A stretch of DNA of 64,000 bases from Geosiphon pyriformis (lineage: Eukaryota; Glomeromycota; Glomeromycetes; Archaeosporales; Geosiphonaceae), in NCBI GenBank assembly GCA_016748015.1, contig JAAOMT010000705.1:4502-68501 (forward strand). The letters are read 5' to 3'. Both the position numbers and the translations under genes were made by a program. Under the pieces are notes generated by a model. That model made no database searches, had not been told where the DNA came from, and saw nothing but the letters and a program-made list of their open reading frames with translations. Shown in pieces: positions 1 to 64,000 of the stretch. The stretch's first letter is position 1; every line of letters starts with the position of its first letter.

Positions 1-1050
1 ATTCGACTTATTATTGGTTATATATAGAGATTTTATTGGATTCTTAATCAATAAAAAAAATAATTTTCAATTTATAAAAGATTATAAATTATAATAAATA
101 AAAATAAGTTTTATGTTTATTATTAATAAATATTAAATACTTAGTTATTTTAAAGCTTTATTTTATTATTAATAACTTTTTTTACTTGTAAAAAATAGTA
201 TCAGCTATATAAATATTATTGTCATGAGTTTTTAAAGTTCGAGTTTTGGGCAGATAAATAGTATTATTATGTAAATAACTCCAATTATTGATTAAAAAAG
301 AGAGTATATGTGAATTTTTGATTAAGAAAAAAAGTTATTTTTGTTATTAAAATATCTAATATTTTTTATTTTTATTTTTATTGTTATTATTTTTTTACAA
401 ATAATATATATAAGCATTTAATAATGAAAAAATTGAAAAAATTATTTAAAACTATGAAATTATTAAGTAAATTTATATTTGTTAATGTTTATAATTGTAA
501 ATAATCAAGTTTATACTTTTATTGATAAAATTAATTCTTTGTTTTGTTATAATTATAAAAAGAAGATAATATATAATAGCCAAAAAAAAGTGTTTTTAGA
601 CATTAAAAATTAAAAGTTTGTTTAAAAAATAAACATATTAATACTAAATTCATATCTTAACTATTAAAAACTTATTAATAAATAGACTAAACAAATAATA
701 AATAATTAATAAGAAGATATTTTTATAATTGAAAATACTTATTTGCAAAAATTATATATTGGTTTTTTTATTATTAAGTTGTTCATAAAAATTCCAAACT
801 TATGTTTATTTTTTTTTAGTTATAATAACTATTATATTGACTTTAATATTATTATCAAACATATTATTTTTAGAAACAAATATTATTTTGATATTTGTCA
901 TTTTTTAAGTTAAAAAAAGCTAAATTAAGATTTAATCTACTTATATATAAGACTTAGCAAGTTAAATTATAAGATTTTGACTTGTATTATTTTAAGTTAA
1001 AATATTTATAACTTAAATTCAATTCTTAAGAGTTAAATATTAAATCAAAA
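1..1050. other. AT-rich stretch, no gene seen
   Basis: Very AT-rich sequence with stops in all frames and homopolymer A/T runs. I see no protein motif, RNA gene or clear repeat boundary. It may hold the 5' part of the decayed LINE L1 that becomes recognisable further right, but nothing in it proves that. Confidence 0.5.
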
Positions 1051-2715
1051 AGAGTTAATTTAACTTTTTTAAAGCTTTAATAATAAAAAAATAATAAATT
1101 AATCTTAAAATGATTAAAATTTTAGTAAAAATATTTATTAAAAAATTTTATACATAAAAAAAAACACTATAGTAAAAATATTGGTTATTTAAAAACTGAT
1201 TACAACAATAAATAAATTTAAAGAATTATTACTTTTTTAAAATTTAACAAAATTATCAAATTAATATTTAATTTTGAAAAATTTTTAAATAAAACTATAA
1301 CTTTAATTATTAACAAAAAGATTTAAGTAAACAATAATCTTAAAAAACAAAAAAATTATTTAAATTAGGCTGTAATTAAGAAAATTATTATAAATATATT
1401 AAAAAAAATAATTGTTTTAATTTTGTTTAAATTTGGTTAAATAATATTAATCTAATTGTAATTTATTAGACTATAGCAGAAAATTATAATAGAATTTGCC
1501 AAATTAGTTCAAATAAATCTGTTAATATTAAAGTAATTAATTTTAATTAACAAAAATTTAATATATATAATTAAGACTAATATAGATTAAACAACTTAAT
1601 TATTAAAAAATTAATTCAAGATATTATTGTTTATTCTTTTTATAACCACAATTATATATAATTTTAGTATTTTTTTAGAAAAAGCTAATAAAAAAATATG
1701 TATTATTAATTATATATTTACTATAAATACTAAAGTTCAATATATAATAATTTGTTTTAATTTAAAAAAACTTTATATTAAACTTATTATATTATTTTTG
1801 TGTTTAATAAAATTTTTTTTTAAATTAAGCTAATTTAATTTACTATAAAAATTGAAAATTTTAATTACTTTGTTTTAAAATATGATTTTTCTATTTTTTT
1901 TAATAAATTTTCTAAAAAATTTTGTAAATATAAATTTTTTAAGATAAACTGTTTTTATTTTGTTTATTTTAAGCCAAAAAAAAAATTTATCTTATATTCT
2001 GTTATGTTTAATAATAAATCTTAAATTTAAATAATTTTTTTTAATAAACAATTTTTTTTATTTTAAAATGTTTTTTATTAATACTTTTTTTAACCAAATA
2101 TCTTTGATTTTTAAAAAATTAAATTTTTTTTTGTTATTTTATTAATTAAAAATATATTTTTTTCGATACTAGTTATTAATATTGATATAATTTTGAATAA
2201 TTTTTTAAAAAAATTATTAATATACTATTTGTTAATATTTAAATTCTTATTGTTATTATTTTTTAACTAAATAGCTTAAAAGTAAAAGTGTTTGTTTTTT
2301 TGTTGCAATTTTATTAAGACTTGATTAATTGTTTTTTAAACAATTAAATTAGTTTAAAAAATTGTTATATATAATATAAGAGAAATAAACAAGTTTATTA
2401 AAGCAAAAAAACATTATTAGGTAGTACAAAAAAATAAATAATTTGATATTTATAGTTATTAAAACAAAACTAAAAAATTAAATTAGATTTTAAATTAAAA
2501 ACAAGTTTAAAAATATACAAATTTTTATTTTTGGTTTAAACTTTAATTATTTAAGTTTTAAAATTGCAATTATTATAAACAATAGTTTAAATTATTATAT
2601 TTATAAAGTTTTTAAAATAATTGATTAATTTTTGTTAATTATATTGCTTTTTAAAAACAAGTTTTTTGTTTTTATTTTAAATATTTATACTTGAGTTTTA
2701 TTGATTATATTTTTG
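1050..2715 (+). pseudogene. L1: decayed LINE ORF1 (nucleic-acid-binding protein) remnant
   Basis: Remnant of a non-LTR retrotransposon ORF1, the RNA-binding protein that packages the element's RNA. The clearest part is 1627-1833, where a frame reads LEKANKKICIINYIF. This matches the block before the zinc knuckle in other ORF1 copies here; L3 has LERTGKKTCIINQLF at 11.3 kb. About 1840-1890 a zinc-knuckle remnant follows (ENFNYFVLKYD), with the ligand His and last Cys turned to Tyr. Near 1970-2020 the frame KPKKKFILYSVMFNNKS corresponds to the usual 'YAKK..P.S...FGGKSWAQ' block. The remainder to about 2.7 kb fits the Leu-rich tail of ORF1. No ORF2 is seen; the copy stops at the 3' end of L2. 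The start is uncertain by several hundred bases. Confidence 0.6.
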
Positions 2716-3845
2716 ATTTTTTTATTATTATGAGGTTTTATGAATAAAACTTAACTGCTATCTAGTATATAGACCCAAACTAAGTAGTTCAGATCAAATA
2801 CAGTTTATGCTTTTACTACATATAACCAGTCATTCGGACCAGATAAAGCAATATTATATGTTTATACTAACAAATATATCACCATCTAAACCAGAAAAAA
2901 AATAACACAATTTGCATTTACTAAAACTAACAGCAAAAAATTTTACAATACCAAGCATATAAACTATTCTATCCAATAAAATAGATATCAAACAATGAAA
3001 TAAGCCTGAAATCACACTCTTGTCTCTAACTAACTTAGTTCTTTTTATATTTGCTTTGTGTTTGAACCAAACAAGTCACATCTTAATACAATATAACTCT
3101 ATCATAAACCTAATATAATTAATAAGATTTGAAGCAGTTTTTTTTCTCCTATTAAAGACCAAAACAGCTTCAGCAAACCAATTTTTTAACACAAAACTTT
3201 TACAAATTCTAGTATACAGACTTATATTCAAAGAACACATTGACAATAAATGTAGAATAGCAAAAGCAGGCAAACAAAAACCACTAGCCAATAATATTTA
3301 TTTCTTAACAGTTTCAGCCAAAGTGTCTTCATAGAAACCAACATTACTAATACAAGTAAAAGCATAGTCAGACAATTCAACTTTACTGTATAGTAAACAT
3401 AGTATCTTAAAATAATTCTTGTAATATAATCTCTTCTTAACTACTACTGACAATTATTTATATATTGCCTTTATCAAATATGTATACAAATTAGCCAAAG
3501 TTCTGCTAGTGAATTCAGAGAGCATGTGTAAATCAGAATGCAAGACTCTTACAATAACAGCCCAATCTATCTTCCCAATTATAATACTTGGAATCACATT
3601 ATAACCAAAACCAGTCTTCTAATGAACACAACAAATTAATCAGTACAAATTACATATAAAGTGACAAGTATTATCAGACACAGCCATGTTTTCAACTACT
3701 AAATACTGTTTTTGAATTCCAAAAAACAAAGAAAAAGAAGATAAAATGGCCTTATCAGCCAATATATCAGCCCTTATATTGCTCGAAATTTCCAAATGTT
3801 CTTTAATCTTTATTTACTCAACAGAAATATCTTTATTCTTAATAA
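2716..3845 (-). mobile_element. L2: 5'-truncated LINE, 3' end of ORF2 plus 3' UTR
   Basis: Minus-strand 3' fragment of a LINE. Reading leftward from about 3845, a frame resembles the end of an RNase H domain (the 'VKGHSG..GN.RAD' block, here decayed to IKEHLEISSNIRADILADKA). Next comes the cysteine-rich C-terminal region, then 3076-3291, which contains CKSFVLKNWFAEAVLVFNRRKKTA. That last segment is typical of the ORF2 C terminus and close to L9. The 3' UTR at about 2740-2860 is shared with L6 (23.05 kb) and L9 (50.67 kb), including the block around 'actacatatgaccagtc', and ends in an AATAATAAAA-type tail near 2716-2735. It is 5'-truncated, as is common for LINEs. Stops and frameshifts are throughout. 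Confidence 0.75.
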
Positions 3846-5879
3846 AATTTTTGAATTAAGCTAATAAAATCAATTTTTTTATAATTAAAACCATGAATAA
3901 AAGTTTTTATTATTTTAAAAAGCAATTTTAATGAAAATAATTTTAGAAAAAATACTAATTTTAGAAAATATTTAGATTTAGGTTTGGTTAATTTTTTAAT
4001 AAGTAGTTTTATAATTAAAACAATAATATAATACAATTTATAAAAGATTATAAAAACTATTAATTATATTTTTCTTTTTGCTTTGCTTATTAACATTGTA
4101 ATTAATTATAATATTTTAGATATAAATATTTTTTTTAACATTAATTACAAAGTTATTTTTATTTTAGTAAGCTTGAATAGCTTTTTTAATATATAATTAA
4201 ACTTTTTACAAAAACAAATTAATAAAAATTGGTAAAAATACAATTTAAAATATAAAAATAATATTAAATAGATTTACTTTAAAAATATTACTCTGTTAAA
4301 AATAATAAAACTGTTTAAAAAAAAATTTATTTTTTAAAAAAACGGAAATTTAAAAATAATATAAATATAAAGTATTTTTAAAATCTAGTTTTATAGTTTT
4401 AATAATATTATGTATTTGAAAATTTTTTTAAATTGAAACTTTTAGTATTTAAAATCGTTAAAACAACTGATATTATTTTGGCTAAAAAGTTTTTATATTT
4501 ATTAAACTTGTAATTTTTTTTAATTAAGTTACAATTTTGAAAATTCAAATTTTAATAAATATAATCTCTAATTTTGTTATTATCAAGTCTGGTTTATTAA
4601 AAGCATGTTATTATTATTGGACTTTTAAATTACATAAGTTTTAAGTAATTAAAAATACATGAATTAAATTTGTTATTTTTAAGCATATAAAAAGTTTTGT
4701 TAATAACAAAAATTATATAATCAAAAATAGTTTAAAATATTATTTTACAAGATAATATTAAATTATTTAGTGGTTAATAATAATAATTTAAATTTATTTT
4801 ATATTAAATTTGAAGTTAATTAGATTATAAAAAAATAATTTAAAAAAATTATTTCTAAAATTATTTTAGCAATTTAATATAATTAATATACTTTTTTGAT
4901 TTATTGATTTAAGTGTAAATAATTTTTAGAGTTTTAAAAAGTTTTGTTTATATATTTTTAAAAAAAATCAATTATTAAGTTAATAATCACATTAATAATT
5001 TAGTTAATAATTACTTTTAAAAATAAATGACTATTTAATAATATTAATAATTTATATATATGATTAATTATAACTAAGTAAATAAATAAAACTTAAAAAT
5101 AAAAGTTTTAATTATAATATTATTATTTATAAAGACTTTAATATTAATATATATAACTAAATCTATAATAATATTATTTTTTTTATTTTTTTTGATTTGA
5201 ATAATTGTAGTTTTTATAAAGTATATTGAATAATTATTTATTAAAAAATAAAATTAATACTTAATATTAAATCCAAAAAGTGCTAACATAAATTATATAG
5301 AATTATATTAGTGTATTATTTTTTATTAATAATATAAATTATTTTTAGATTTTTAGATTTTTTTGTTATTTTTTAAAAAGAATAATAAATGAAATATTTA
5401 TAAAATTAATCTTGAATATTAAATTTTTACTAATTTAATTTATTTATTAAAATTAAATTACTTTTTAATTATTATATAATATTGTTTTTTTGCTATTTAT
5501 TAGTATATTATATCTAACTATAATAATAAAATTTAAATTATCAGTGATTATATTATTATACAAAAAATTTTAAACATAATTATTTAAGTTTTTATTATTA
5601 ATAATATTTTACAAACAATAATAAAACTATTATTATTTTTATTAATATTATTAATATTATTAATTTATTAATATATAATAATTCTATTATTATTGCTAAA
5701 ACAAATTAATTTTATAATACTTAAATATTATGTTTTTTATTAAAATATTTAATATTTCTAATTTAAAAAAAAGAAATTTAAATGTTATATTTTTTATAAT
5801 CTTAAATTTTAAAAGTTAATTTTAAATAAACAATTAGTTTATATTATTATAATAATTTTTGTTTTTATAATTAATATTT
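3846..5879. other. Extremely AT-rich interval between two LINE copies
   Basis: About 2 kb with almost no G or C and no open frame above chance. The first 200 bases on the plus strand weakly resemble the L1 ORF1 segment around 1793-1840 (shared 'ttaataaaattttt...attaagctaat'). An older plus-strand LINE ORF1 may therefore lie under L2. The rest is unresolved. Simple (ATT)n-like stretches occur at about 5640-5700. Confidence 0.4.
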
Positions 5880-6025
5880 TTTTTATTAATTGTTTTACAA
5901 ATACAATCCAATTACTACCTAAAATTATAAAATTATATAAAATTTTATATTAAGTATGGCTCATGCTTTTTTATATATAATTAACTACTTAAGTTAATCA
6001 AAACAGCACTATATTCTTAAACTAC

Positions 6026-9000
6026 TTATAACAAAAAAGTTATACAAAAAACTAAAATATATACTGGAAAATTAAAATACAAACCAAAATAAACATAAAC
6101 ACCCAATCTAATACTGAACTCATAAATTATTTTAAAAAACCACAAAAATGTCAAATTAAATACAGCCAAAATTATGAACTTATTATATAATAAAAAACAA
6201 TACTTTTTATAATGCACTCTCAGCTTGGCAGTTGACAACCATATAGTAGATCTGTGATTTTTAGTAAAATTTCAGTCCAAATTAATGACTAATAATATAT
6301 TATTAGACTAATTACCCAATAAACATACTGTATTAACTATTTACTTCCTTATTACAAAATCTTTGACCAGTAATATATACAAACAGTTAGAAGATTCAGT
6401 CTTATACAAAGACTGAATTATTATATTATTAGTAGTACAGACATTCAATAAACCAGTTTACATTTTAATAGTTTTTAAAATCAGATCTAATTTAGTGCTA
6501 TTATTATAGATACAAAAAAATGTGTATTTAAAATCCTTAATTAATTTATATTAAATATACAACATATTAGAATAGCTTGAATTATATAGTCTCTTTCTTT
6601 TTACTACAGATAACTGATAATGTAGAGATTTTATAAAGTAAAACTAAAGTGTTGTAGAAATTGAGCTGGTAAAATTTGAACAAATTCGATTATCAAAATA
6701 CTATATATTAAAAGTTCTATATATATTAATTAGGTTATATATAGTCTTGTTTACAGCATTATTGGCATATTTGAAATTTCAATTAACAAAACTAATGGTT
6801 TTAAAAAAACACCTAGCAAAATAACAGATGTTCTCAAAAACAAGTCTGTTTTTAATAGTGAAAAATCAGCATAACACTTTAACAGGTAGCATAAAGTCAG
6901 ATATGATGACAGTATCAATAAAAAAATTACCATATTTATTGCCAACAATTTTTAATTAATTAACAAATTTTTGAAACCAATAGTCTAATGAATATGTTCT
7001 CTTTTTATTCAATATTTATTACAAAAATCAAGACTGACATTTTTTTTAATTAAGACACTTATATTTAATAACATTTAACTATTTATAAACAACATAATAA
7101 ACACTAAAACATGTTTTAAAGCAAAAACAATAGCTTGTAGTTCTATTAAAGTTAAAGATAATAAGCTATTTACTTTAACACTTATATTTATGTTAATGTT
7201 TAGAAAATAGACAACAGCACTACTATGAACATTTACAGATTCCAAACTCTTGACTAAACTATTTGTATAAACAACAATATTATTAAACTTATTTTTAAAA
7301 AAATGTTTATCAACAGAATTAAATTCACTTAAGTATTAAACAAAAGTGGTTTAAAAAGTCAAAGGACTACTGCTATTTAAACCATTATTTTCAATAAACT
7401 TGACCAGCAAACTGAATTAATTAGGAACTGAATCTTTAAAATTCAGTTTTTTTTATTTATAAAATATACTTTATATAAAACATATGTCACAACAATCCAG
7501 AAGTTAGTTTGCAAAAACAATACAAAATCTTTTCAACAAACTTACTATACTCAAATATTATTTCAAGTTCAATACATCTGCAATAGTGATGCTATTATCA
7601 ATCTAAAAAATATTAGACAGATTATTGCTTAAGAATAATCCAAAAAATACAAAAGTATTAATAATATCAGCTAGAAAACAGTTGATAAAATTAATTGAAA
7701 ATATAATTGAAAAACAAAAAAGTTGTTAAGGCATTTAATTAATGACCTGCAAATTCATAGTTTTATGTTCAAACAATCTGTGAGAATGTTTTTCAAGTTG
7801 GCAAAAACTATTATATTTGTCAAAAAATTTTTGGCTTGCATTTGTTTAAATAATTTTAGACCATATAACTCAGAATAAATAATGGTTTTATTAGAAAAAT
7901 TCTTAAACAAATTGGTTTTAAGTTTTAGTTTTTTTCTCAACATTTTGTCTTATTTTTTATATGTATTTACAAAAACATGACTAAATTACAGTCTGTAGCC
8001 AACTATTGGCTACAGGATAGCAGACATTAGATACAAAAATTGCTTATCAAACACAGTCTTTTTCAAAACCAGATTTGTAAAAAAATTAATGTTTAAGTAA
8101 ATCTTAATAAGATTTGATTTAAAAAGACTATTTATAGACAAAAAAATGCCCAAATATCTATATAATTCACTTTTTTTAGCTATAAAAATATTTAATTTAT
8201 TTATTACTAAATAAAAAATCTTTACTCTATAATTAATAAATATGATAACCATCTTATCTGTATTAATTGAAATGTTATTAATTTGAAAAAATTCATTAGC
8301 TATATTCAAAATATACTGAGTAGTGGCCATGCCATTTCCAACCCAAATTGTGTCATTCACAAAAGTCTTTGCTATTAGAAAAAATATTATTCTACTTCTA
8401 AATTTTGCTTGCCAGTTTGCATAAAAAATTTTAAATCTAATTTGTAATTATACAAACTGCTATGCTTTTTGATTTTACAGAACAAAGAATTGTAAAAAAT
8501 TTTTTACAGTAGAAACAAAAATATTTTACTCTGATCCAGTTTATTATAAACAATATACTCTTTTATAAACTTAAAATTTGTTATCACTCAGTTGATTTAA
8601 TTATTGTATATATTCTCAAACAACCTAATATAATAAAGACATATTTTGATTTTAGCCAAATTGTTTTTCAAATAAAACTATCTAACAGAATTGTATATTT
8701 TACACATATTCTAAAAGACTAGTTACAACTTTCTGTTTTTTCTCAATACATTTTTAATAATAGAATTAACAGTAAAAATTGGAATTTGAATGAACATGTC
8801 TTTTAAATTGAGAAATTATTATTATGCAAGATTTAAAATTACTACAGCCTAAAAAAATTCTATTTAAAAGAATCTTAGATAAAATTTTTCAGGCTTTTTT
8901 AATTAAGACTATAAGTTTGGTATTTGTAAGAACCTTTTTTTAATCATATAGCTTTAGTATTATAAAGACCCAAACTCTTTTTTATTGTATAAAAACTATA

Positions 9001-10620
9001 TTTAACACCAAATATATATTAAAAATATTCAATAAATCATCTAAAATCTGCATATTACTATGTTTTCAGAGCTCATTAGGAATTTCAGAAAAATCAACTG
9101 CTTTTCTATTAGGTAAATTCTTGACAACTTACAGAAATTTATCAAACTTAATATTACATATTACTTTTAAGAAAGCATTATTATTAACATAATCCAGAAA
9201 AGCATATTAATTAAACTATCTATCGAATAACATATTGAGCACTACATACTTTTTTGTTTATTTTTTTATAATTGTGTTAATTGTAAACTTGACTTTATGT
9301 GGCTTTAAAATTAGTTTATTATTAACTACTAAATAATTGAATACCATTTTTTTAAAAGACAAATTAAAACATTCTTAATTATTCTTCTCTTATTAGAACA
9401 AAAATTTTTCATATACTTATTTATAACTTTTCTAATGAAATTTTTTTTAGTAATCTTAAATTTATAATACTTGGATTTATAGTACTTTTTTTAACTTTCA
9501 ACAGATAATATAGAATTTTTTCTAATTTTTTATTATTATCAATCATAATACACAATTCAAAAGCCTTTTTTTTATCAATATTAATTCAGATATTAATAAA
9601 ATAATTAGTTTTAGAATTTAGAATTTAAGCTTTTCATAATTTTGGCCACTAATAACTTCAGTTTGAAAAACTTGAATAATTATCTGTTTTTTGAACACTC
9701 AAATTTACTAAACCAAAGTCTAAAAAATATTGTATTAATAGAGCTTATTACTATTTTTTTTAAAATTTTTTACATAGTATCCAGCTTATTACAATCTTTT
9801 GTACTATTAAAATCAACTATCTTTTTCAAAAATTTGTCTAATAAAAGCTTTTTAAATTGCAACTACTTATTAACTTTATTATCCTTAATTTTAAGCTTTT
9901 ATCTATTCTTATTAGTCTGTTTACAAATATTATTAAGACAAATATTTAAGAGCTTATCTAAGCCAATCACAATTGAAGCTGCCTTGTGATTAGTATCAAA
10001 GAACTTAAATATAGTGTCAATTTTATGACTAATGATTACAAATACTAGATTTTGGTTTACAAAAATAAAATCAAAAATCTTTTCAGCATCTCTAAAATTA
10101 TCTCAAATAGAAGTCTTGGCCAATAAATGTCTACTAAATGAGTTAATTAAGTCTAAATTCATACAAAACCTAAAACTTGCACTTTTTTTTAAACTGTCTT
10201 TATTAAAATTTTCACCCAATACCACAAAAATACTTGAGTTAACTGCCTTAACAATGAAAGAGTCGATTTTTAATGCTTGACAAAATCTGGTTTCAACAAA
10301 AGCACTTATATATAAACCAAAAATCATAATTAATAATTTGCTTTTGAACAGAAATTTTTTCTATCTTTGAAACATGTCAAGCCAGAGAATTGTCTATAAT
10401 AATTATCATTCTAATACCAAAAAAGCTTTTGTTCAAATCAAATGTAAAAATTTTTATTTTATTAAACTTACTTACAATCTATGACCTAATATAAAATCTT
10501 AACTTTGTTTTTATATAATAGAAATCCTATTATTTAATTTTATATATCAACAAACAATATTCTTCTATTTAGCAAAAACATTAATATTATAAACATTATA
10601 TGTAGCAATTTTTTAAATTA
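6026..10620 (-). pseudogene. L3 ORF2 remnant (endonuclease-RT-RNase H)
   Basis: Decayed polyprotein for target-primed reverse transcription. In order: apurinic-like endonuclease (10327-10103, FVVLGENFNKD, from the family's GGDFN-type motif); RT entry block near 9110-9060 (VVKNLPNRKAVDFSEIPNEL, compare L8 NLPDGKAAGLSGITNEL); RT active site at 8363-8352 reading FVND instead of FVDD; and the following block at 8350-8010 (NNISINTDKMVIIFIN). An RNase H-like zone lies at about 7.2-6.75 kb, then a C-terminal part at about 6.7-6.5 kb (IKSLHYQLSVV, RKRLYNSSYSN). The last recognisable frame is 6238-6026. Many Trp-to-stop and Gly/Asp/Cys losses follow G-to-A changes. The first catalytic Asp of the RT is Asn. 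Confidence 0.8.
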
Positions 10621-10629
10621 AATCAGTTA

Positions 10630-12228
10630 TTAAGATAAAACAAATACAAAACTTAAGTCAGCATACAACAAATTTAACTTTGCTAAAACAAAATCAATAG
10701 AAGTTTTAAGAGCCACCAATTTTGATTTTAGACAGCTTATCTTAATGGTTAAGATTTTTGAATTGCTTAAACTTAATATTAAAGTCTTAGTCAAAACCAA
10801 AGAAAAAAATAGGAGTAAGATCTGTGAATTATTTAATACTATACTTAAATTTAAATTTAAATCAAAAGTTAATAGACCCATAAAAACTTGCAACAAAAGA
10901 AGTAAAACTAAAAGCATTAACTTTATATCACTAAATTTACATATAATATTTAATATTTAATCAGCCAGTAGCTTCAAAAAGCATTTCAAAGAAGCTAACT
11001 GAGTATTTAAAAAAGAGTTATCTAGCAAATTAGAAGAAATTTTTCTATTAAAACAAACTTTTTAAATACTTTTAAAGATAGAGAAATATGAGGACCAAAT
11101 GTATTATACTCTAAAGTAAAATGATCAAAATTTTCATATTTCTTACATCAAATTAAATCAATCCTAGCCAAAGAAAATTTTATATTACTAAAAATTGGTT
11201 TTGTACAAAAGATAAATTTTAGCTTTTTATCTAATTTAAAACCAATTACAGTACAGCAAACTTTGTTGCCAGTTTTAAATAATTGATTTATAATACAAGT
11301 TTTTTTACCAGTTCTTTCTAATAAAAAATTAAAATTATAAGCAGTTGTTTTTACAGACAAAGTAAACAGAAGTGCTCTAAACTAATCTCTTAATATTCAT
11401 ATATTACAATTTTTTACAGCTTTGATTACAGCTTTCTGTTACAGCCCAATAAGTTTTAATTTGATCAACACAATTTGATCATATTCAGATACTGCAGCAA
11501 TGATTATTTTTTTGGCATGTTTATGAAAATTTCCTTGATTATTACAGTCTAATCTGACCTAATTTTTTGTCTCTTGAGATTATTGTTTATTTTGATTCTT
11601 TTTTTTTAAACAATAATACAGTTTTATTCGTATTTTTTTCTAAAGTAAATGTTGATTTAATGATTCCTTTAAATTTTAAAAGAGTAGTAATATCCTTAAA
11701 ACCATTGATTGCTGAAAAAATTTTTCTGATAATCTGAGTTTTGGCTATACCAATTTTTTTTCCATAGCTAAAAAATTAATATCTAATACAAAGAATTTTC
11801 TAATGATCACTTTGATCTGGATTTTTACTATCTTAAAATCTATCTATCTTTTTTTAGGAGAAAAATTAAAAAAAAGAGAAGAGTTTTTCATTCTCATCTA
11901 TGTCATAATTAATTGAGCCAATAAGAAAGCCACAAACTATACCAGAATTTATCCTCTTTGCTTTAAAGATATTTGCTATCAAGCCAAAAGAGAGCCACCA
12001 CTAATACTTAATAAGACACTATCATCCTTACTATTACCAGGCTCACTGTTTATATCTGAGTATACACTAATGTTATACCAGATTTAACTAAAGAGATATC
12101 TTTTACATTACCAAAATACTTGATATTACCAACTAAATTCTTTTTTTGGAAAAAAAACCTTTAACAGAACTATAAAAAGCTCTCTTGGGTGCTTTTTTTT
12201 TAGACATAATACTATCTGAGACAGCCAT
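10630..12228 (-). pseudogene. L3 ORF1 remnant (RRM-like / CCHC protein)
   Basis: Start chosen at the ATG at 12228, giving MAVSDSIMSKKKAPKRAFYS, which matches my recollection of one glomeromycotan LINE ORF1 subfamily. Around 11.47-11.40 kb a frame reads VLIKLKLIGL*QKAVIKAV, the RRM-like core (compare L8 VSIRIQLIGLWQKALIEFES), with Trp changed to stop. At 11360-11148 the frame reads LERTGKKTCIINQLFKTGN. It ends in the zinc knuckle at 11147-11106, C-X2-C-X4-H-X4-C, now C..Y....H....Y. At 10917-10630 the Leu-rich, possibly coiled-coil C terminus is visible (KSKLVALKTSIDFVLAKLNLLYAD). The protein would bind element RNA. It is dead from internal stops and lost Cys ligands. Confidence 0.8.
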
Positions 12229-12378
12229 TTGGTTTATCACAAAAGGATTATTTGCTTGAGAAATTTTTACAAAAAAATAACCAAAAAAAATAAAAACTTT
12301 TTTTTAAAAATATGCTTTTGAGAAATTTGAAATGTAGAAGAGAAAAAAGTATTTTTATTTAATATTATACTTAATTTA

Positions 12379-12406
12379 CAGAGGGTGATCAAAAGTTTCC
12401 GAACAA
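12379..12406 (+). repeat. Left TIR of Tc1 derivative
   Basis: Starts CAGAGGGTG and ends CCGAACAA. It pairs as an inverted repeat with 12957-12984 and differs at four positions. Preceded by TA. Confidence 0.93.
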
Positions 12407-12510
12407 GATTTTATTTAACAATAATATTTATTTTTTTATAAAATAAAATAAAATAAACAACATATTTATAATTTTATAGTAATTTTCTAAATTTTTCTCT
12501 TAAGTGTTAC

Positions 12511-12735: not shown

Positions 12736-12956
12736 TTCATTTTAATAAAAACGACGAAAAAATCTTATATGCACGTTACATTTCATTTTTAGAAAAAAAC
12801 GAGTATGAATAAAATCGATTATGCGCGTCGCGAAAAAACATTATACACACGTGTTTAAAAAATAAAAAACGCGTAATTAAATAATTAACTAACTTAATTT
12901 AGTAATAAACTTGTGCTTTTCTAATTATTCAAGCATGTGGAATGTTACTCCAAAGT

Positions 12957-12984
12957 TTGTTCGGAAATTTTTGGACACCCTTTG
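12957..12984 (-). repeat. Right TIR of Tc1 derivative
   Basis: Reverse complement starts CAAAGGGTG and ends CCGAACAA, matching the left TIR. Followed by TA at 12985-12986. Confidence 0.93.
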
Positions 12985-50624: not shown

Positions 50625-53600
50625 TTATTTTTTTATTATATTTATTAATTAGTAAAGCCTAACTGCTATCTAGTATATAGAATCAGACTAAATAGCTCAA
50701 ATTAAATATGATTTATGTATTTACTTTATGTGATTAGTCATTTAGGCCAAACAAAACAACACTACATACTTATACTAATACTTATGTCACAATCTAAACC
50801 AGAAAAAAAAAGGCACAGTCTATGATAGCCAAAACTAACAGCAAAAGATTTAATAATAATAAGCATCTTGATTATCCTATCTGATAGCATTAATGCTAAA
50901 CTACATAACAAGCTTGACACTATACTGCTGTTTTCAACCAAACCAGTCTTTTTTATATCAACCCTAAACTTAGATCTCACCAGCCAGACTCTAGAACAAT
51001 ATAACTTCACCAAATACTTTATAAAATCAACAACAGCAGAGATGGTTTTCTTTCTATTATCAAAAATTCTGATAGCTTTTACACACTAATTCTTTAGCAC
51101 AAATCTTTTGCACATAACTACATAAGTTTTAGTATTTGACAAACAACAAGAAAACATCTGTAAAACAGTCAAAGATAACAAACTATAAACACCTACCAAA
51201 GCAACTCATTATATAAAAATCTCAGCCAAAATTTTTTCCCAAATACTGATATCCTAAACACATGTAAAAACGTAATCTGACAACTCTATTTTGCTATACA
51301 GCAAACACAATACACTAGAATATTCTTTATTATATAATTTTTTCTTAACAACTACTAATAATTATCTGTATACAGCTTTTATTAAGTATATGTAAAGACT
51401 AAATAACTTCTAACTAATAAAACCAGTAAGCATGTATAAGTCAGAGTGCCAGACTTTTGCAATAACATCTCAATTAATATTCTTAATTAATGTATTAGGA
51501 ACCATATCATGGCCCAGATTAGTTTCTCAATAAGTACAACAAACAGATCTAAAAATGTTCCTGACAAAATAGCAAGCATTATTAAATACAATAGTGTTCT
51601 TAGCAACCAAAAAACATTCACACACCCCTATTGGCAAGGAAAAAAGAGAGCCAGCAATTATACTTGTAACAGTATTGGCTTTTATATTACCACAAATCTC
51701 AGAATGGTCTTTAATCTTGATCCAATTTACTGTAAAATTCTTATTCCTAATTAAATTAACAATATGTCTTCTCTTAATTCAACATTAATTATGAAAATTT
51801 GGCTTAATAAATAACATTTTAAACACATATGTATTAATAATAGCTTGGTTTTTGAGATACAAAACCAAAGAGCAGGAAAATGAAACACACTTCAAAAACA
51901 AAACAACAACTTACAACTCAGCCAAAGTAAAAGACACAAAACCATGAACACCAATATTAATACTTATATCCAAAGCTAAAAAATATGTAGCAGCACCACT
52001 ATTAACACCAGCAGAACCAGTATTTTTCAATGACTCATTTGTGTATATCTCAAAAAAACTAAACCAAATTTTATGTAATCTATTTTGTACTTTAGCAAAC
52101 CCTTCAGAATTCAATATGTCCAAGCTAACTGGCCAAATAAACACAGGTAAATCAAGTAATAAAGAATCCTTACTATGCAAAAATTTTAACATAACCTCAA
52201 ACCAATAAAAAATAAAGCCTCTAAAATTCAATCTTTTCTACCAATGAAATGTCTTCCAATCTATCACACAGCCTTTCTTATCAAAAAATCTATTACCAAA
52301 AGTAATCTTAAAACATTTTAAAAAATAAACAAAACTAAGATACAAAACCTTTTTAAGAATAGACAACATAAGAAAAACACCAAGACTATGAAAAGCATTG
52401 GGCAAATTGTTTGTCAAAAATAGCTCATTACTTAAAAAATCTTAACTATACCAGCCAGAAAATTGTTCACAAAACTAACAAACAATTTAATAGGGAATTG
52501 CAATACACACTTAATAAGACAAAATTAAACTGAGTTCTATAACTAACAATAAGCTACAAAACAACCAACACTAAATAAGAAAACTGCTTATCTATAATAA
52601 TCTTTCTAAGCACCACATTAATAAAGAAATAGACATCAAAATGAGTTTTAATCATACTTAACTTGAACAATCTTTTAGTCAATAAAAAAATTCCCAGATA
52701 TTTGTGTATTTTATTCTTTTTGGCAATCAAAATTGGTTGACCATTGATATTCAAAGAAGCAATCTTAATATTCTAATTAATAAGAATGGCCACAGTTTTT
52801 TTAGTATTAATTAAAATATTATTGATCAAAAAAAATTCATTAGCAATATTCAAAGCATATTATACAGAAGCTTGACAATTTCCAATCCAAATTGTATTAT
52901 CCACAAATATGCCAGCTGTAAAAAAAAAAAAAAAACTACTACTATTTTTAATCCTGCCAATTTTTACCACAAACTTAGTATTAATCTAATATTCACATAA
53001 ATGCTTATGTTTTTTAACTTCATATAAGAGCAGATTGTAAAAAATTTTCTAAAAAAAAAGGGAAAAAATCTTACCTTAATCTAAATTATTATGCACTTTA
53101 TAGTCCTCTAAGAGACTGAAATTTGTTATTATCCTATTAATCCTATCACCATATATGCTGTTAAAAAATTTGATAAACTTATCATACATTTTGATCTGTT
53201 TTAAACTAGCTTTCAAATAATACCAGCCAACCTAGTTATATGTCTTATACATATTTTGCAAGACCAACCAAAGTTCCCAATTTTTCTTTAATACATCCTT
53301 AACCACCAAACCAATTGCAAATACAGGAGAATAAATAAACATATCCTTCAAAATAGAAAAGTTATTATCACAAAAAACACTACACTTGCTGTATACAGAC
53401 AAAATTCTATTAAAAAGAATCTTAAAGAAAATCTTCTTGGCAGTTTTGATTAATGCAATAGGTTAAGTGTTTATAAAAACTCTATTTCAGTTATAAAGTT
53501 TAAGGATTATTAAGACCCAAGTTCTTTTTTACAAAACAAAAACACTACCAATTGTTAAATATATATTCAACAACTCTAAAAAGCATCTTATTACTTTTTT

Positions 53601-55314
53601 TTTACTATGTTTCTATAGTTCATTAGAAATGCTAGACAAGCTTGTAACTTTGCCATTAGGCAGACTATTAACAACTAAGAGCAACTCACTTATACTAATT
53701 GCACATATTACACCAGAAAATATATTATTTTTTATGTAATCTAATAGTATATATTAGCAAGTTCAAAGATCAGACACTGTCAAAGACACATTCTGCTTTC
53801 TTGCCCAATTTTTCATAATTTTATCAATATTGAACTTTATTTCTCCCAGTTTTAAAACCAATTTATTATTTACCACCAAGTAATACAGAACTACTTTGTG
53901 AAAAGACTAATCTAAAACACTCCTAATTATACTACTTTTATCAGAACAAAACTTATCTATTTGTCTTTCAATTGTCTTCCTAATAGATACTTTTTTGGCC
54001 AATTTTAACTTATACATCTTGGACATTCTATATTTTTTCTTAACTAATGATAAATGTTTGAAAATATTTCTCAATTTCCCATTATTCTAAACTATGTTTG
54101 TTATTATAAGAGCTCTATCAGCATCTAAAGTTGACCACTTCCTTATAAGACAATTGAAACTAAGAATGTTATCTGAGTTAAACTTCTTAACAATTTTGGA
54201 AACCAATAACTCCAACCCAAAAAATTTTGAAGACTGTCTGTTCCTTAAGCACTAAAATTTACTGAATCAATATTTAGAAAATATCTTATCAGTAGACTTT
54301 ACTATCATTTTTTCTAGCAACATTCACATAGTATTCAAATTATTATGAGTCTTAGCATCAAAAATTTATTCACTACCACCAAGATTTTAGCAAAAAAACA
54401 ATTTTTAAATCACATCTACTTGATACTATTTGTATCTTTGATCTTGAATTTCTAACAATTTTTGTTAAGCTGTTTGTACAAGCTGTTTAGGCATTTGTCT
54501 AAAAGACTACCCAAACCAATTGACACCATAATAGTATTGTAATTAGTATCAAAAAAATCAGAAACAGAATTAATTTTATAACTGGCAACTGCTAATAATA
54601 ACTTTTTTGACACCTCTTAAATTGCTCTAAATAAAAGCTTTGTCCAAAGAATACTTACTAAACAAATTGACCAGGTTTAGACCCAAACAAAATTTAAAAC
54701 TCGTATTCTTTTCAGATTTATTTTCATTGAAATTCTTACCTAAGACCACAAAAGTGCTGAAGTTAACAGCTTTAGCAATAAGAAAATTGATTTTATAAGT
54801 CTGACCAAACCTAGTCTCAGAAGAAACATCAACATATAAATCCAAAACCATAACTGGAAGCTTGCTTTTGAACATAAGTTGCACCAAAATAATCCAACCA
54901 GAAATCTCCTCTACTTTAAACACATAATAAGCCAAAAAATTGTTTATAATAATAACCACCTCAGCACTAAGAAAGCTTTTTTCCAAACCAAACATGAAAA
55001 TTTGTATCTCCTCAAACTTATTTGTAATTTATGGTTTAATATTAGATCTCAACTTTGTCTCTGTAATAAAAAAAACCACATTACCTTAACTCATATGCCA
55101 ATGAACAACATTTTCTTGCTTTGCAAAGATATTAACACCCTTAATATTACATATAGCAAACTTCTAAGCCAAGTTTGTCATTGAGATAAAAAAAAAGCTA
55201 AAAAATCTGAACCAGAGCACAACCAATCTAACTTTCTCAAAACCAAGTTAACAAACACCTCCAAAACAACTATTTTTGATTCCAAACTACTTGAACCAAA
55301 CTCAAAAAACATGC
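50625..55314 (-). mobile_element. L9: LINE from ORF1 tail to 3' UTR, cut by LTR element C
   Basis: Minus-strand LINE copy. Reading from 55310 leftward: the ORF1 tail (SSSLESKIVVLEVFV...KLDWLCSGSD), then ORF2 with endonuclease, RT, RNase H, C terminus and 3' UTR, shared with L2 and L6. The upstream 5' part of ORF1 is absent because LTR C begins at 55315. I do not find it beyond the LTR cluster, where L10's 3' end begins. Damage is intermediate: more readable than L5 or L6, less than L8. Confidence 0.85.
50762..55190 (-). pseudogene. L9 ORF2 remnant (endonuclease-RT-RNase H)
   Basis: Endonuclease at 54995-54627: FLSAEVVIIINNFLAYYVFK and FVVLGKNFNENK (GEDFN/GGDFN changed to GKNFN). RT: 'AVNSLPNGKVTSLSSISNEL'-like at about 53670-53600; active site FVDN at 52907-52896, so here the second Asp is Asn while the first is kept. 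The block at 52754-52554 reads IAKKNKIHKYLGIFLLTKRL and LRKIIIDKQFSYLV. RNase H at 52231-51911: FEIYTNESLKNTGSAGVNSG (family TDGS, Asp to Asn) and SFTLAEL. C terminus at 51013-50762: SRVWLVRSKFRVDIKKTGLV, SFAVSFGYHRLCLFFSGLD. This C terminus places L9 in a subfamily distinct from L8 and L10. Confidence 0.82.
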
Positions 55315-56295
55315 TGTTACAGGTAATTATTTGGGGTTTGAAAACAAATAACAAATCTGTAACTTGGTGCTCAATAGTTGAATTATGTTTAGTAATTTGA
55401 AGGTTTTGGTTGTCTAAAAATTTTAGTAATTTGAAGGTTTTGGTTGAGTTCTTTGTATAATGGACAAAGATTCAATAATAATATTCTTTGATAATGTTTT
55501 TAGTTTCTTTTCAACCCTCAAATTGGTATGTTTTATTGTTTATTACTTCCCAGAATTGCAATTTTATTAATTTTTTTTTTGGCTTAATGACCAGTAATCT
55601 CCTAGTAAGCTATTTTCAATCTTGAATGTTCATCCTTATTCCTAGGTCTTTTACTAGTGCTATATTCTAATGTTAATATCCCATGTGTTAATCTTTTAAT
55701 CAATTAATAAATCTACAATAAAACAAAAAGAAAAAAAAAATTAAAGAAATAAAGAAAATAAAAAAAATAATAAACAGAAAAATAAAGAGATAAATCAAGG
55801 CAAAAAAAGTTAATATTCTGTCAATAGCCATGATCAAGAGCTATTGGTCCAAGGTAGTTAAGTATTAGATTTTATTAACATGTAATGTTAATAGTGGTGA
55901 AAGTAATTAATATTCTTAATTAAGTAATAATAACATGAATTTGATAATAATAGATAATTTTATTAATACAAAAATGATTTCACTTTAAGTTATAGAAAAC
56001 TATCTTTTGAAAAAAAGATATTGTTCTAATTTAATATAACTTCTATTGAATTTTTCTGGAATTGTTTTTTCTGTTTTTAATACTTTTGCTATATATATAT
56101 AATTTATGTTATATAAAATTCTTTGAATTTTTCAATTCTTTAGCCAGAAATCCTGGAATTTTTCATATGAAATTCTGTAATTCTGGAATTCTACAATTTC
56201 TTTAAGAAGAATTTTGGAATTTTCTATTTTACTACATCTATTCTAATTGGCTAATTTATGTACTAATATTTAATTCCTATATTCTATGAGTAATA
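55315..56295 (-). repeat. C 3' LTR
   Basis: 981 bp, closely similar to 58141-59188. The right terminus is TAATA on plus (the TG start on the minus strand has decayed to TA). It contains a TATA-like (AT)n at 56090-56115 and repeated TTCTGGAA-type motifs at about 56045-56220. Confidence 0.88.
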
Positions 56296-56929: not shown

Positions 56930-57945
56930 TATAATCACAGGGTTTGAAATTTATTGGACTTTGAATGTTCAGATTTTTGAATAATTTCCGAAGTTTGAAT
57001 TGCTAGAGATTTAACAAGTTTTATTAATAGTAAGTTTTTTTGTATAATAGCAGGATTGAGATTATTAAGTTTCAAATATTTGAGTTTTTGAATAATCAGG
57101 TCTTAAATAATCAGAGTTTTAATGAGTTTTAATGAGTTTATTAAAGGTAAGTTTTGAATGTTTGAAGTTTTAATAATCGGGTCTTAAATAATCAGAGTTT
57201 TAATTTAACAAGTTTTAATGAGTTTATCAATGGTAATTTTTGAATATTCAGAGTTTTAATAATCAGATTTTGAATAATTGGAGTTTTAATTTAACAAGTT
57301 TTTAACAAATTTATTAAAGATATGTTTCAAATGTTTGGAGTTTTAATGATTGGGTTTTGAATAATCAAAGTTTTTAATTTAATAAGTTTTAATGAATTTA
57401 TCAATAGTAATTTTCGAATGTTAGAGGTTTTAATAATCAGATCTTGAATAATTAGAGTTTTAATTTAACAAGTTTTTAACAAATTTATCAAAAGTAAGTT
57501 TCAAATGTTTAAGGTTTTAATAATCAGATTTTGAATAATTGGAATTTTTAATTTAACAAATTTTAACAAATTTATTAATAGTAATTTTCAAATGTTTAGG
57601 ATTTTAATGATTGGGTCTTGAATAATTAAAGTTTTAATTTAATAAGTTTTGAATGTTCAGGATTTTACTAATCGGATTTTGAATTATCAGAGTTTTTAAT
57701 TTAATAAGTTTTAACAAATTTATCAATAGTAATTTTCGAATGTTCGGGGTTTTAATGATTGAGTTTTAAATAATTAGAGTTTTAATTTACTGAGTTTATC
57801 AACAGTAATTTTCAAATATTCGGGGTTTTAATAATTGGGTCTTGAATAATTGAAGTTTTAATTTTTAATAAGTTTATCAAAGATAAGTTTTAAATGTTTG
57901 GAGTTTTAATAATTGGGTTTTGAATAATCAGAGTTTCAATTTAAC
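56930..57945. repeat. ~86-bp tandem array in element C
   Basis: About eleven imperfect units, each containing 'agttttaatttaacaagttt', then 'ttatcaatagtaattttcga' and 'gttttaataatcgggttttg'. Spacing between like motifs is roughly 80-90 bp. The array fills most of the space between the internal ORF and the primer-binding site. Some units retain CG ('aatcgg', 'ttcgaatgttcgg'). Confidence 0.8.
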
Positions 57946-58128
57946 ATGTTTTTTAAAGATAATACCAAAATACGGATTTCACAAATTCTAAATGATTTTC
58001 TTTTGTTTTCTTTTGGTTTGCCATTTTCCTGCATGGTTGTTGCTGGTGCTGGTTCTCTGTTGAATTATACCTTACAAAGAGCACCAAATATTACAAGTGA
58101 TTTGTTTTCTGTTAGATTATATTTCACA

Positions 58129-58138: not shown

Positions 58139-58140
58139 AA

Positions 58141-59188
58141 TGTTATAGATAATTATTTGGAGTCTAAAAACAAATAACAAACCTGTAACTTGGTGTTCAA
58201 TAGCTGAATTATGTTTAATAATCTGAAGATTTTGATTGTCTAAAGATTTTGATAATCTGAAAGTTTTGGTTGAGTTTTTTGTATAATAGACAAAGATTTA
58301 ATAGTAATATTCTTTGGTAATGTTTCTAGTTTCTTCTCAACCTTTGAGTTAGTATGCTTTGTTGTCTATTACTTCCCAGAATTGCAATTCCATCAATTTT
58401 TTTTTGGCTTGATGGCCAGTAATCTCCTAGTAAGCTATCTTCAATCTTGAATGTTTACTCTTATTTCTAAATTTTTTATCAGTACTATATCCTGACATCA
58501 GTACCCTATGTATTAATCTTTTAATCAATTAGTAAATCTATAATAAAACAAAATAAAAAAATAAAAAAATAAAAAAATAAAAAAAATAAAAAAAATAATA
58601 AACAGAAAAATAAAGAGATAAGCCAAAGCAAAAAAAAGTTAGTATTTTGTCAATAGCTATAATCAAGAACTATTGGTTCAAGATAGTTAAGTATTAGATT
58701 TTATTAACATAAAGTGTTATTAATGGTAAAAATAATTAATATTTTTAATCAAGTAATAATAACATGAATTTGATGATAATGGATAATTTTATTAATAGAA
58801 GAATGATTTCACTTTAAGTTATAGAAAACTATCTTTTGAAAGAAGAGTATTGTTCTAATTTAATATAACTTCTATTAAATTCTTTAGAAATTCTTGAATT
58901 CTTCTGGAATTGCTTTTTTTGTTTTTAACTCTCTTGCTATATATATATAATTTATGTTATATGAAATTCTTTGAATTCCTCAATTTTCTAGCCAGGAATT
59001 CTAAAATTCCTGAAATCTTGTAATTTTTCAAGAGAAATTTTGGAATTTTGCAATTTTTCATATGAAATTCTGGAATTCTGCAATTTTGCAATTTTTTTAG
59101 AAGAATTTTGGAATTTTTCTATTACTATATCTATTCTGATTGGCTAATTTATGTACAAATATTTAATTTTTATATTCTATAAGTAACA
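58141..59188 (-). repeat. C 5' LTR
   Basis: 1048 bp. Starts TGTTATAG and ends AAGTAACA on plus, i.e. TG...CA in both readings. It is longer than the 3' LTR because of extra GGAATTC-type repeats (58880-59110) and an A-rich simple repeat at 58540-58600. Confidence 0.88.
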
Positions 59189-59247
59189 ATAACTTTAACT
59201 ACCAAGAAAAAAAAAATAGGCAGTATTAATGGATTATTCATAACCAT

Positions 59248-60208: not shown

Positions 60209-60214
60209 TTACTT

Positions 60215-63200
60215 TTTTTATTTTTTTTATTTGCTTAATAAGTGAGATTCAAACACTACCTAGAACAATATATCAACCAAATAATCTAAACTAGGTGTGA
60301 ATCATGTATTTTCTACATATGACCAGCCACTCAGGCTAATCAAAACAACACAAATTGTTTATATAAACTGATACCACTTGACATAAATCTGAAAAAAACT
60401 TACAAGATTTATAAAAACTAAAACTAAATCCTAAAGCATTAGTAATACCCAATAAATTAATTATGCCAGCAGAAAGAACCAAAGAAAGCTCAGATACTGA
60501 GTCTGAAACCGACTTATCATGTGGAATAAGACCATTTTTTTTATAAAAACTTGGTATTTAACATGAGTCAACCAAACCTTCTTTCTAAATGTAAAACTAA
60601 ACTTGTGCATGAAGTCTGCAATTTTTTGACCTGTAATTTTGGGATTTTTGAAAACAGAAAAAAATTCTTGATACCAATTATTAAGAACAAAACCCTTGTA
60701 TAGAACCATATACATAGCAATATCAGAAGTGCAAGAACTCAAACACTATAAAACACATGAAAACAAACTAGACAAACCAAAAAACACTCTTCAATTAGCT
60801 GTATAGGCATCCAACAACTATACATGAGCACCAGAATTAAACAAGCAAAAAAAAGTGTAGTCAGAAACCTCAATATTCCCATAAAAGAAACACAATGCAC
60901 TCAAATAATTATTGACATACAAACACTTATGAATAGTGACAGGGAGTCAGTAATGTAAAGCTTTCATAAAATATGTGCAAGCACTAGTAGTGTCTTTACT
61001 AGTAAAGCTGGTGGCCATATGTGAATCAGAATGTTACACCAAAGATAATCTAAACCATTTAATGTCTACATGCAATCTGCTTATCACAATCCAAGAACCA
61101 AAGCCAACTTCTTAGCACATTTGACAAACAGATTGGACAAAATGCCTAGAATTACCAGAGACTACACTACTACCAACTCTGATAAAATGTTTCTTGATCT
61201 AATAAGAGAAATACTGACCAAAGAAGAAAGCAGATCCTGCCAAAGCATTAATGGTTTCATTGCCTGAAACACCTAAATGTCTCTTTACTTTGTGCCAGCT
61301 GACCTTCAAATACTTATCATAAATGACTCTCACAATATGGTGATATTCAACCCAGTATTGATTCCAAAAATCCAGATGCAACAAACTCAATTCAGACTTG
61401 TAAGCATCCAAAGCAGCTTAACTGTCTAAAAAAAAATGAACTAAACTAGAAGGCAGAACACACTTAAGTGTTAGAACAATAGTTTGCAATTTTATTATTG
61501 TTGAAGACACCAAATCTAAAACTCCAACACCCAGGCCCAAATTGATATTCTCAAAAAAAACAGCTGCACTAGTTTTCATATTAGCAATTCTCAAACTGCA
61601 TAGAGATCCATCCATATAAACAGAAAAAGAACCAGCACTAACACCCAACAAATAGTCATAAATGATCCTAAAATTATCAGATTCAAGAATGTTTAATAAA
61701 CCTACACTCCCTAGAAGAAGAAAGCTAGTAGAAAAAGGAGCTGAACTATTAAGAAAATGAATAAAAAGGTTAAACCAGTCAGGAACAGGACTATATGGGC
61801 TCAATCTTTTCTAATGCTTAAATGTTTTCCAATCAAAAATTTCACCATTCTAGTTACAAAGCTGTTCTGCAAAAGCAATTCCATACTGCTAAAATGAAAA
61901 AGCACATTTATAAAATTTTAACACATCAAGAACAAGTAATATAGAAGTTCTATTTCGAAAACAAAAAGCATTGGTTATAAAACCACCCAAAGACAGATTA
62001 CACTCCAGAAAAATACAGCTATGTTAGCTAAAAAATTGTTCAAAGGATTGATATTCACACAAACCAAAGACATCAAAGGGTAACATAGAAGCCAGCTAAG
62101 AACCTAAAAATTATGTGACTTATGTGCAAACAAATAGCCCAAAATCCCGGTTGAATTAGCAAAGCAAACTATGAAAGCCAACTTGTCCTTAGCCTGAATT
62201 TGTTCAAAAGACTTCAAACCATAGAGAAAAGAGTAATGAAGCACATTGTTGAGAAAATTACAAAGAAAACCAGATTTGAACTTCAAACCCTTGTGAATCA
62301 AAGTATCCCACTTATTATACAAACTAACAGGAATGTAATTGAACTGAGTTTTGTAACCAATAATTAGATAAAAAACCACTAAAACCAAATACAAAAATTG
62401 TTTGTCAGAGACTGTCTTCTTTAAAACCAAATTGGTAAAGAACCAGACATTTAAATGTGCTTTAGTCAAGCTAGGCTTTGACAAGCCCTTAGAAGACAAA
62501 AATATATCCAAATAGCAATGAAATTCCCTCTGTTTGGTAATAGAAATAAGTGCTCCACTGACTAACAAAGAAAGATTTGTAACTCTGTAGTTGATAGGGA
62601 TTGCCACAGTCTTATTATTATTTATAGAAATGTTATTGATTTTAAAAAACCCACTGGCAATATTAAGAATATGTTATACAGCAGTCTGACTATTACCAAC
62701 CCAAATCATGTCATTAACAAAAGCACCAGCAGCTAAAAACAAGATTAGCCCAGCCTAAAATTCTACATGCCCAGTTCTTAAAACAAAATGAGAATTCAAC
62801 TTATAACTACACAAACTCTACTGTTTTTTGACTTTATACAGAAGTAAATCATAAAATATGCACCAAAAAAAAGATGAAAAAACTTCTCCCTGATCCAACT
62901 TATCATGAACTTAATATCAATCAATTAGACCAAAATCAGTTATAACCCAGTTAACATAATTATTATGAATGCTACCAAAAAATTTAATAAACCTGTTGCA
63001 CATTTTGATCTGAACCAAACTCTTCTTAAAATTCTTCCATTCAACAAAATCATAAGTCTTACACATGTCTTGCAAAACCAGCCACAATTTTTGGTTCTTT
63101 TTTAAGGCATCTTCAATCATTGAACCAATAACAAAAATGGGAGACTGTATAGTTATACTTTTTAAAACAGAAAAATTGTCACCTCTAAGAACATCAAATT

Positions 63201-64000
63201 TGCTGTAAGCCAAAAAAATCCTGTCTAAAAGAATTTTAGAAAAAATTTTGCAAGCTGTTTTGATTAAGGCAATGGGACAGATATTCATAAGAACACTCTC
63301 TTATTCATATGGTTTTAGAATCATTAAAACCCAAGTCTTTTTTCAAGAAAAGGAGACCAATTTATATGTCAAACTAAAGTTCAAAAGCACTAGCAGCATG
63401 TCCAAAACTGACTTATTGCAATGTTTTCACAACTTATTAGAAATGCTAAAAAGGCCAGCAGCTTTTCTACCAGGCAGATTTGTGATAATGCTAAGCATTT
63501 TGTCAAAACCAATTGGAATCATTACCTCAGAAAAAGCACTATCAAAGATATAACTCAATAGTTGGTATTGACAAGACCAGTCATTAAATACATTAGAAAC
63601 TATCTTATGCTTATAAGTTCAGTATTTTATAATCTTATCAACCTTAATCCTAATCTTATCAGGCTCTAAAACCAGTTCTTTATCCACTACAAAATGGTCC
63701 AAAACAACTTTGCAAAAAAGATGTTCTAGTATATTCCTAATAATATAATCTTTATCTAACTTGAAACTCTTTATCCTCTTATTAATAGCCAACTTGATCT
63801 GAGATTTCTTTGTGTGCTTAGATTTAGACAGTTTAAAAATGCAATAAGATTTTTTAACCTTAGCCAAAGCTGATCTAATATCATTAAAACAAAATTCAGA
63901 ACTAATAAGCAACTTCACAATAGCTGCATTAACAGTATCAATGTTCTTCTATTTAACAAACAAAGAATTAAACTTATTACAAAAAACCAATCCAGAGACT
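60215..64000 (-). mobile_element. L10: LINE, ORF2 and 3' UTR, runs off the window
   Basis: Minus-strand LINE copy whose 3' UTR begins near 60215-60240, just after C3, and is shared with L8 ('gaatcatg', 'catatgaccag'). ORF2 is readable from the C terminus to the region upstream of the RT at 63918. The endonuclease and ORF1 would lie beyond 64000. The damage level is intermediate. Its C-terminal sequence groups with L8 rather than L9. Confidence 0.88.
60461..64000 (-). pseudogene. L10 ORF2 (RT, RNase H, C terminus), disrupted and partial
   Basis: From the window edge leftward: linker 63918-63619 (ALAKVKKSYCIFKLSKSK, then KVVLDHFVVDKELVLEPDKI). RT 63288-62917 (CPIALIKTACKIFSKILLDR; NFSVLKSITIQSPIF; LWLVLQDMCKTYDFVEW). 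Active site FVND at 62721-62710. Thumb 62607-62104 (VLKKTVSDKQFLYLVLVVFY). RNase H 61804-61199 (VYMDGSLCSL with Thr to Met; IIKLQTIVLTL where the family has LAELQA, so catalytic Glu is Lys; WHKVKRHLGVSGNETINA). C terminus 60742-60461 (MYMVLYKGFVLNNWYQEFFSVFKNPK). Open segments are long, but stops and shifts separate them. Confidence 0.85.

Follow-up and report, generated by a model that had tools for sequence, protein, structure and literature searches.

C-to-T hypermutation of transposable elements with CpG and pyrimidine-C preferences in Geosiphon pyriformis

We analysed a 64,000-nucleotide stretch of the Geosiphon pyriformis genome (C178:4502-68501 of the assembly; hereafter the window) together with related sequences recovered by searching the assembly of 124.7 Mb in 406 contigs. 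Transposable elements (TEs) in this genome carry an almost pure load of C-to-T changes, read as G-to-A on the opposite strand, which falls preferentially on CpG and on C preceded by a pyrimidine and is acquired independently by each copy. Two sets of duplicated host genes escape it, as do most copies of a miniature inverted-repeat transposable element (MITE). The reading that we favour, by little more than an even call, is that a TE-directed C-to-T mutator acts after insertion, as a defence resembling repeat-induced point mutation (RIP) that would operate through a methyltransferase of the DNMT1 clade, with DIM-2-like genes as the best candidates.

The youngest long interspersed nuclear element (LINE) of the window belongs to the L8 family, for which the genome search returned 1758 candidates and 30 copies were each scored against the majority base of every column along 3.3 kb. 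These copies hold 5229 GC-to-AT changes against 872 AT-to-GC changes and about 458 transversions. The original prediction, made from the window alone, had described differences that are mostly G-to-A and C-to-T; the bias proved stronger than claimed, and it recurs in an older LINE, an integrase-bearing element, a long terminal repeat (LTR) pair and two MITE copies. Polarity was assigned by majority rule and rechecked with a stricter threshold of 0.85 and with unpolarised pairs. Counts of transitions to transversions (Ts:Tv) in the closest L8-family pairs, which are 90% identical and were left unpolarised, are 315:4, 337:7 and 291:2, and 13 independent LINE pairs together give 4948:286, or 17.3. 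Changes private to the L8 copy of the window, scored over 3.06 kb at sites with the same base in the outgroup and both sister copies, comprise 125 GC-to-AT, 18 AT-to-GC and 8 transversions. The predicted conversion of Trp and Gln codons to stops is borne out in 27 LINE copies, where 125 of 134 new in-frame stops arose through GC-to-AT change.

Both strands of the LINE are mutated about equally and every C context is affected. The LINE C-to-T changes showed no clustering by strand or by distance, and their rate is flat along the element; the equal strands and the lack of clustering or of a gradient eliminate RNA or cDNA editing of the LINE. The differences fixed between LINE subfamilies have an ordinary spectrum (62 Ts:30 Tv), so the C-to-T excess lies only on terminal, dead branches, and copies once mutated do not give rise to new ones. 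The C-to-T sites of 22 long copies lack linkage structure (top eigenvalue 1.38, against 1.33 ± 0.04 under permutation), and the relationship is thus a star in which each copy was mutated independently from one source sequence. The load per copy is about 12% of G:C sites, and none of the 30 copies is unmutated, although the search should have placed such a copy among its highest-ranking matches. Loads per copy follow an approximately Poisson distribution, but the copies were picked by similarity, which biases their spread towards narrowness, and we do not use it as support.

The sequence context departs from the prediction, which had placed several changes in TpG/CpA. LINE C-to-T rates are 0.318 at CpG, 0.144 at CpC, 0.112 at CpA and 0.102 at CpT, so that CpA is not favoured and the real preferences are for CpG and a 5′ pyrimidine, in the order CpG > TpC/CpC > GpC/ApC; in the MITE the CpG rate reaches 0.49. 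CpG sites supply about 6% of the LINE C-to-T changes, and with roughly 94% falling elsewhere, decay confined to CpG is rejected. Outside CpG, the mutation rate of C after a pyrimidine (YpC) is some two to three times that of C after a purine (RpC), with odds ratios of 2.05, 1.83 and 3.82 in three unrelated elements. The LINE value of 2.05 has p = 2.5e-85, computed over sites that are not fully independent within columns, and the YpC preference survives the majority threshold of 0.85.

Testing covered four families and one LTR pair, and the pattern held in all of them, for the MITE in 2 of 15 copies; the predicted extension to every retroelement class was to this extent too strong. In the older LINE family, represented at 62 kb of the window, pairs at 78–84% identity have Ts:Tv ratios of 9 to 44 (87:2, for example), and ratios near or above 10 persist even at 17–20% divergence. 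The Gypsy remnant of the window, an RNaseH stretch at about 41.06–41.38 kb, is too old for a direct test, and a younger family of retroelements bearing an integrase (rve) domain elsewhere in the genome was used instead; its 15 copies give 4069:288 over all pairs. A putative LTR pair in the window differs by 114 Ts and 13 Tv, changes which, if the LTR reading is right, arose after insertion. The age gradient that had been proposed is supported by the nearest genome relatives of the window elements, which are 97% identical for the MITE, 92% for L8 and 84% for the LINE at 62 kb. CpG is missing from all 491 columns of the rve majority sequence, where about 16 would be expected, and is scarce in L8, but abundant in the Tc1-like MITE; it seems that CpG has been lost from element lineages of long residence and not from newcomers.

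The 575-bp Tc1-like MITE behaves almost in an all-or-none manner. Of about 67 candidate copies in the genome 15 were fetched, and two of these are heavily hypermutated, with 36 and 58 GC-to-AT changes; 12 copies have 0–4 and the window copy has 9. Counts of GC-to-AT, AT-to-GC and transversions are 9:2:3 in the window copy and 36:1:3 and 58:1:0 in the heavily mutated pair. Other substitutions are similar in clean copies (1–4) and in both heavily mutated ones (4 and 1), and judged by transversions the clean MITEs match in age the least diverged of the LINE copies, none of which has escaped mutation. Most clean copies lie in DNA as CpG-poor as that around the mutated ones, and the flanks are alike, which gives no support to location alone as the cause and makes it likelier that particular elements or copies are targeted than that a whole compartment decays passively. 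The argument for copy-specific action, with only two heavily mutated copies behind it, is suggestive. Long heterochromatic methylation by itself, the other process that the original prediction had offered, fails to explain clean MITEs in CpG-poor surroundings.

The elements and compartments of the window are as follows.

42300..49160, plus strand: L8 LINE copy, the youngest LINE of the window, hypermutated (private changes 125 GC-to-AT, 18 AT-to-GC, 8 Tv)
60213..63866, minus strand: older LINE copy (relatives at 78–84% identity, Ts:Tv about 9–44 to 1)
50457..55246, minus strand: older decayed LINE sequence (observed/expected [o/e] CpG 0.00–0.07)
22862..25816, minus strand: old decayed LINE remnant (GC about 0.19)
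18669..20674, plus strand: old decayed LINE remnant (18–20 kb is without any CpG)
7992..10692, minus strand: old decayed LINE remnant
2612..3849, minus strand: old decayed LINE remnant
41060..41380, plus strand: LTR-retroelement RNaseH remnant (RT_RNaseH; stops read as X)
12415..12990, plus strand: Tc1/mariner-like MITE (terminal inverted repeats of about 28 bp, 23 CpGs; lightly mutated)
55311..56295, plus strand: putative LTR copy A (TGTTA...)
58139..59190, plus strand: putative LTR copy B (TGTTA...TAACA)
57066..57963, plus strand: 87-bp tandem array between both LTR-like copies (some CpG kept)
1..42299, no strand: AT-rich decayed compartment (MITE left out of the figures: GC 16.6%, CpG o/e 0.10, TpC 0.74, GpC 1.81)

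Copies within the 87-bp array differ mainly by transitions (Ts:Tv 3–5). The array occupies part of the roughly 1.8 kb between the LTR-like copies, and the whole (55311-59190) may be a non-autonomous LTR element. At about 59.27–60.14 kb there is a third LTR-like copy, which is diverged.

The first 42 kb of the window is very AT-rich, with a GC content of 10–23%, and its CpG, TpC and GpC values compare with 0.90, 1.00 and 1.08 at host kinase loci. This loss of TpC and excess of GpC is the compositional footprint expected of a mutator that prefers CpG and YpC. Of the 126 CpGs of the window, L8 accounts for 55, the MITE for 23 and the array for 10, and the other 55 kb has 38 where 486 are expected. 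As predicted, CpG is almost absent apart from these three, and L8 itself is CpG-depleted (o/e 0.22). Random genome samples fall into 11 of 20 without CpG (pooled o/e 0.06) and 9 of 20 with normal CpG (0.80), a bimodality that suggests two genome compartments.

Host genes show a different spectrum. Nine independent paralog pairs from the kinase family, which is very large in this genome, were compared over 0.6–3.3 kb at 81–90% identity and give 691:812, a Ts:Tv of 0.85. A short DNMT gene and its decayed duplicate, 32 kb apart (C318:786780-790872 and 819213-822836), differ by about 40 Ts and 22 Tv with CpG kept, and the duplicate is not hypermutated; these spared host duplicates may be old or below a RIP threshold. 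Host loci have a CpG o/e of about 0.9, their outer 700 bp included. General AT mutation pressure is ruled out by the host paralog spectrum together with host-locus composition. Equal rates of transitions and transversions, a lack of context bias, or the same AT shift in non-repeat DNA had been named as outcomes that would speak against a repeat-directed process, and none was seen: transitions far outnumber transversions, the context bias is pronounced, and host DNA lacks the shift. UNG is present as a split gene with exons at C271:277442-278345, so missing uracil repair is not the cause; it was found with the UNG model, the UDG-family search having matched poorly.

Standard RIP index thresholds (PMC7882544) were passed by none of 180 1-kb windows at LINE loci and, in the 64-kb stretch, by 2 of 127, and index-based screens would therefore miss mutation of this kind. 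Of the RIP-like interpretation first proposed, the TE-directed C-to-T process stands, and the CpA/RIP part falls with the negative indices, the different context and the failure to find a RID-type enzyme.

The proposed search for RID or DIM-2 genes yielded DNMT1 and two DIM-2-like loci. No RID-type methyltransferase was found: motif VI reads ENV in all readable PF00145 loci, although assembly gaps could hide one, and Masc1/RID enzymes carry EQT or EET at this motif (PMC6709928). C96 is a clear match to DNMT1. The DIM-2-like genes lie at C327:679525-683048 and, as a paralog, at C355:1326028-1329426; the former matches best to 9bap/9baq, a 1456-residue fungal enzyme in PDB, with a small lead over DNMT1 and a match that reaches further N-terminally. 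Genes resembling DNMT2 occur on C307 and C346, the latter adjoined by a gene with Sel1-like repeats. Three Pre-SET matches represent H3K9 methyltransferases.

Taken together, these observations are consistent with an active, RIP-like genome defence that would recognise transposons as such, whether the cue is a chromatin mark, a small RNA or the length of the homology. Conversion of C to T would be carried out by a DNMT1-clade methyltransferase; the best candidates are the two DIM-2-like enzymes on C327 and C355, which would act with an H3K9-methyltransferase system. We favour the DIM-2-like genes because no RID was found and because Neurospora genomic repeats undergo RIP without RID (PMC11969663), and by analogy a DIM-2-type route is a reasonable candidate. 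Methylation by DIM-2 extends to all CpN contexts; a review gives Phycomyces as the only case of DIM-2 outside Ascomycota and confines RID to Ascomycota (PMC13297926). Several points weigh against this reading. The loads of older families are greater while their Ts:Tv remains high, and LINEs lack strand or distance clustering, both of which would fit slow, independent deamination as well. The LINE sample was chosen by similarity and only two MITE copies are heavily mutated. The CpT preference reported for DIM-2 (PMC13297926) is not seen here, and the identity of 9bap/9baq as Neurospora DIM-2 is presumed from length and sequence rather than from the record title.

The main rival, which we consider unlikely though a serious contender, dispenses with a dedicated mutator: TE chromatin would be permanently methylated at CpG and non-CpG sites, and 5-methylcytosine would deaminate steadily. 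TE-biased CpG methylation is known in Rhizophagus (PMC8647823), CpG is the fastest context here, and the genome is split into CpG-null and CpG-normal DNA; independent changes without strand clustering and the high Ts:Tv at 17–20% divergence also suit such a process. It would nevertheless need dense non-CpG methylation to produce the 94% or so of LINE changes outside CpG, and it must face a ratio of C-to-T changes to transversions about 20 times that of the host, and clean MITEs with similar counts of other substitutions in equally CpG-poor DNA.

An AID/APOBEC-like or other cytidine deaminase acting on the elements could give the pyrimidine-C preference, which is strong here and is typical of APOBEC3-type enzymes. 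We regard it as improbable: CpG is the most mutated context, both strands are affected about equally and LINEs show no strand clustering, unlike cDNA editing, and searches for APOBEC_N and OTT_1508 deaminase, which had no working positive control, gave no match.

Canonical RID-dependent RIP of the Neurospora type would account for the pure C:G-to-T:A change on both strands, its restriction to terminal branches and the mutation of all sampled long repeats. It is very improbable given that CpA is not preferred, that the index thresholds are so rarely passed, that the C5-methyltransferases found carry ENV rather than EQT or EET (PMC6709928), and that duplicated kinase and DNMT genes, about 90% identical, escape, although RIP of this type acts on any duplication beyond a threshold of length and identity, host genes included.

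Methylation-dependent base-calling errors are C-to-T/G-to-A and favour methylated DNA, but an assembly artefact in which C is read as T in TE copies is scarcely credible, since base-calling leaves unexplained a 12% G:C load, its build-up with family age, the dinucleotide footprint and a GC content of 10–17% in old DNA.

Returning to the favoured TE-directed mutator, its products resemble those of RIP in Neurospora and other Ascomycota in that change is C:G-to-T:A only, on both strands and post-insertion, long repeats are inactivated, decayed DNA becomes AT-rich and mutated copies are dead ends. They differ in preferring CpG and pyrimidine-C over the CpA of RIP, in their negative indices, in the RID-type enzyme not being found, and in the sparing of host duplicates and most MITEs. 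A further parallel is the DIM-2/heterochromatin branch of Neurospora RIP (PMC11969663, PMC13297926), in which RID can be dispensed with at genomic repeats. This genome has DIM-2-like and H3K9-methyltransferase genes, putatively in a corresponding role, and changes in all CpN contexts, but a YpC preference is not described for DIM-2 in those papers. TE mutation in basidiomycetes such as Microbotryum (PMC4352252) shares C-to-T change in TEs, a CpG preference, a role for the 5′ pyrimidine and the lack of RID; its bias is to CpG/TpCpG, whereas in Geosiphon the majority of changes fall outside CpG, where the effect of the 5′ pyrimidine is also seen. Rhizophagus irregularis, presumed to be of the same subphylum, has a TE-focused methylation system and expresses a DNMT1-related enzyme, but that study reports epigenetic silencing and measured CpG only (PMC8647823). 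Where PMC8647823 cites work on Gigaspora margarita, an arbuscular mycorrhizal fungus, it gives that species as having no RIP signature, and RIP-like signatures have been described as unique to ascomycetes (PMC12543289).

The process thus works like RIP but fails the tests of RIP for context, index and enzyme, and we do not class it as such; set beside published work, it would be a new variant of mutational transposon defence. We tentatively suggest, somewhat short of an even call, that it is an independent transposon-directed hypermutation defence outside Ascomycota and Basidiomycota, with its own CpG and pyrimidine-C signature, without RID, sparing duplicated host genes, and missed by kingdom-wide RIP screens based on CpA or k-mers. 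If so, mutational defence would be older than thought or would have evolved more than once, and index-based screens would have blind spots. TpC loss, GpC excess and alignment-based Ts:Tv would offer a simple test for other early-diverging fungi, along with candidate enzymes. For Geosiphon itself, such a defence would explain how dead transposons in a TE-rich genome exist alongside large gene families that survive.
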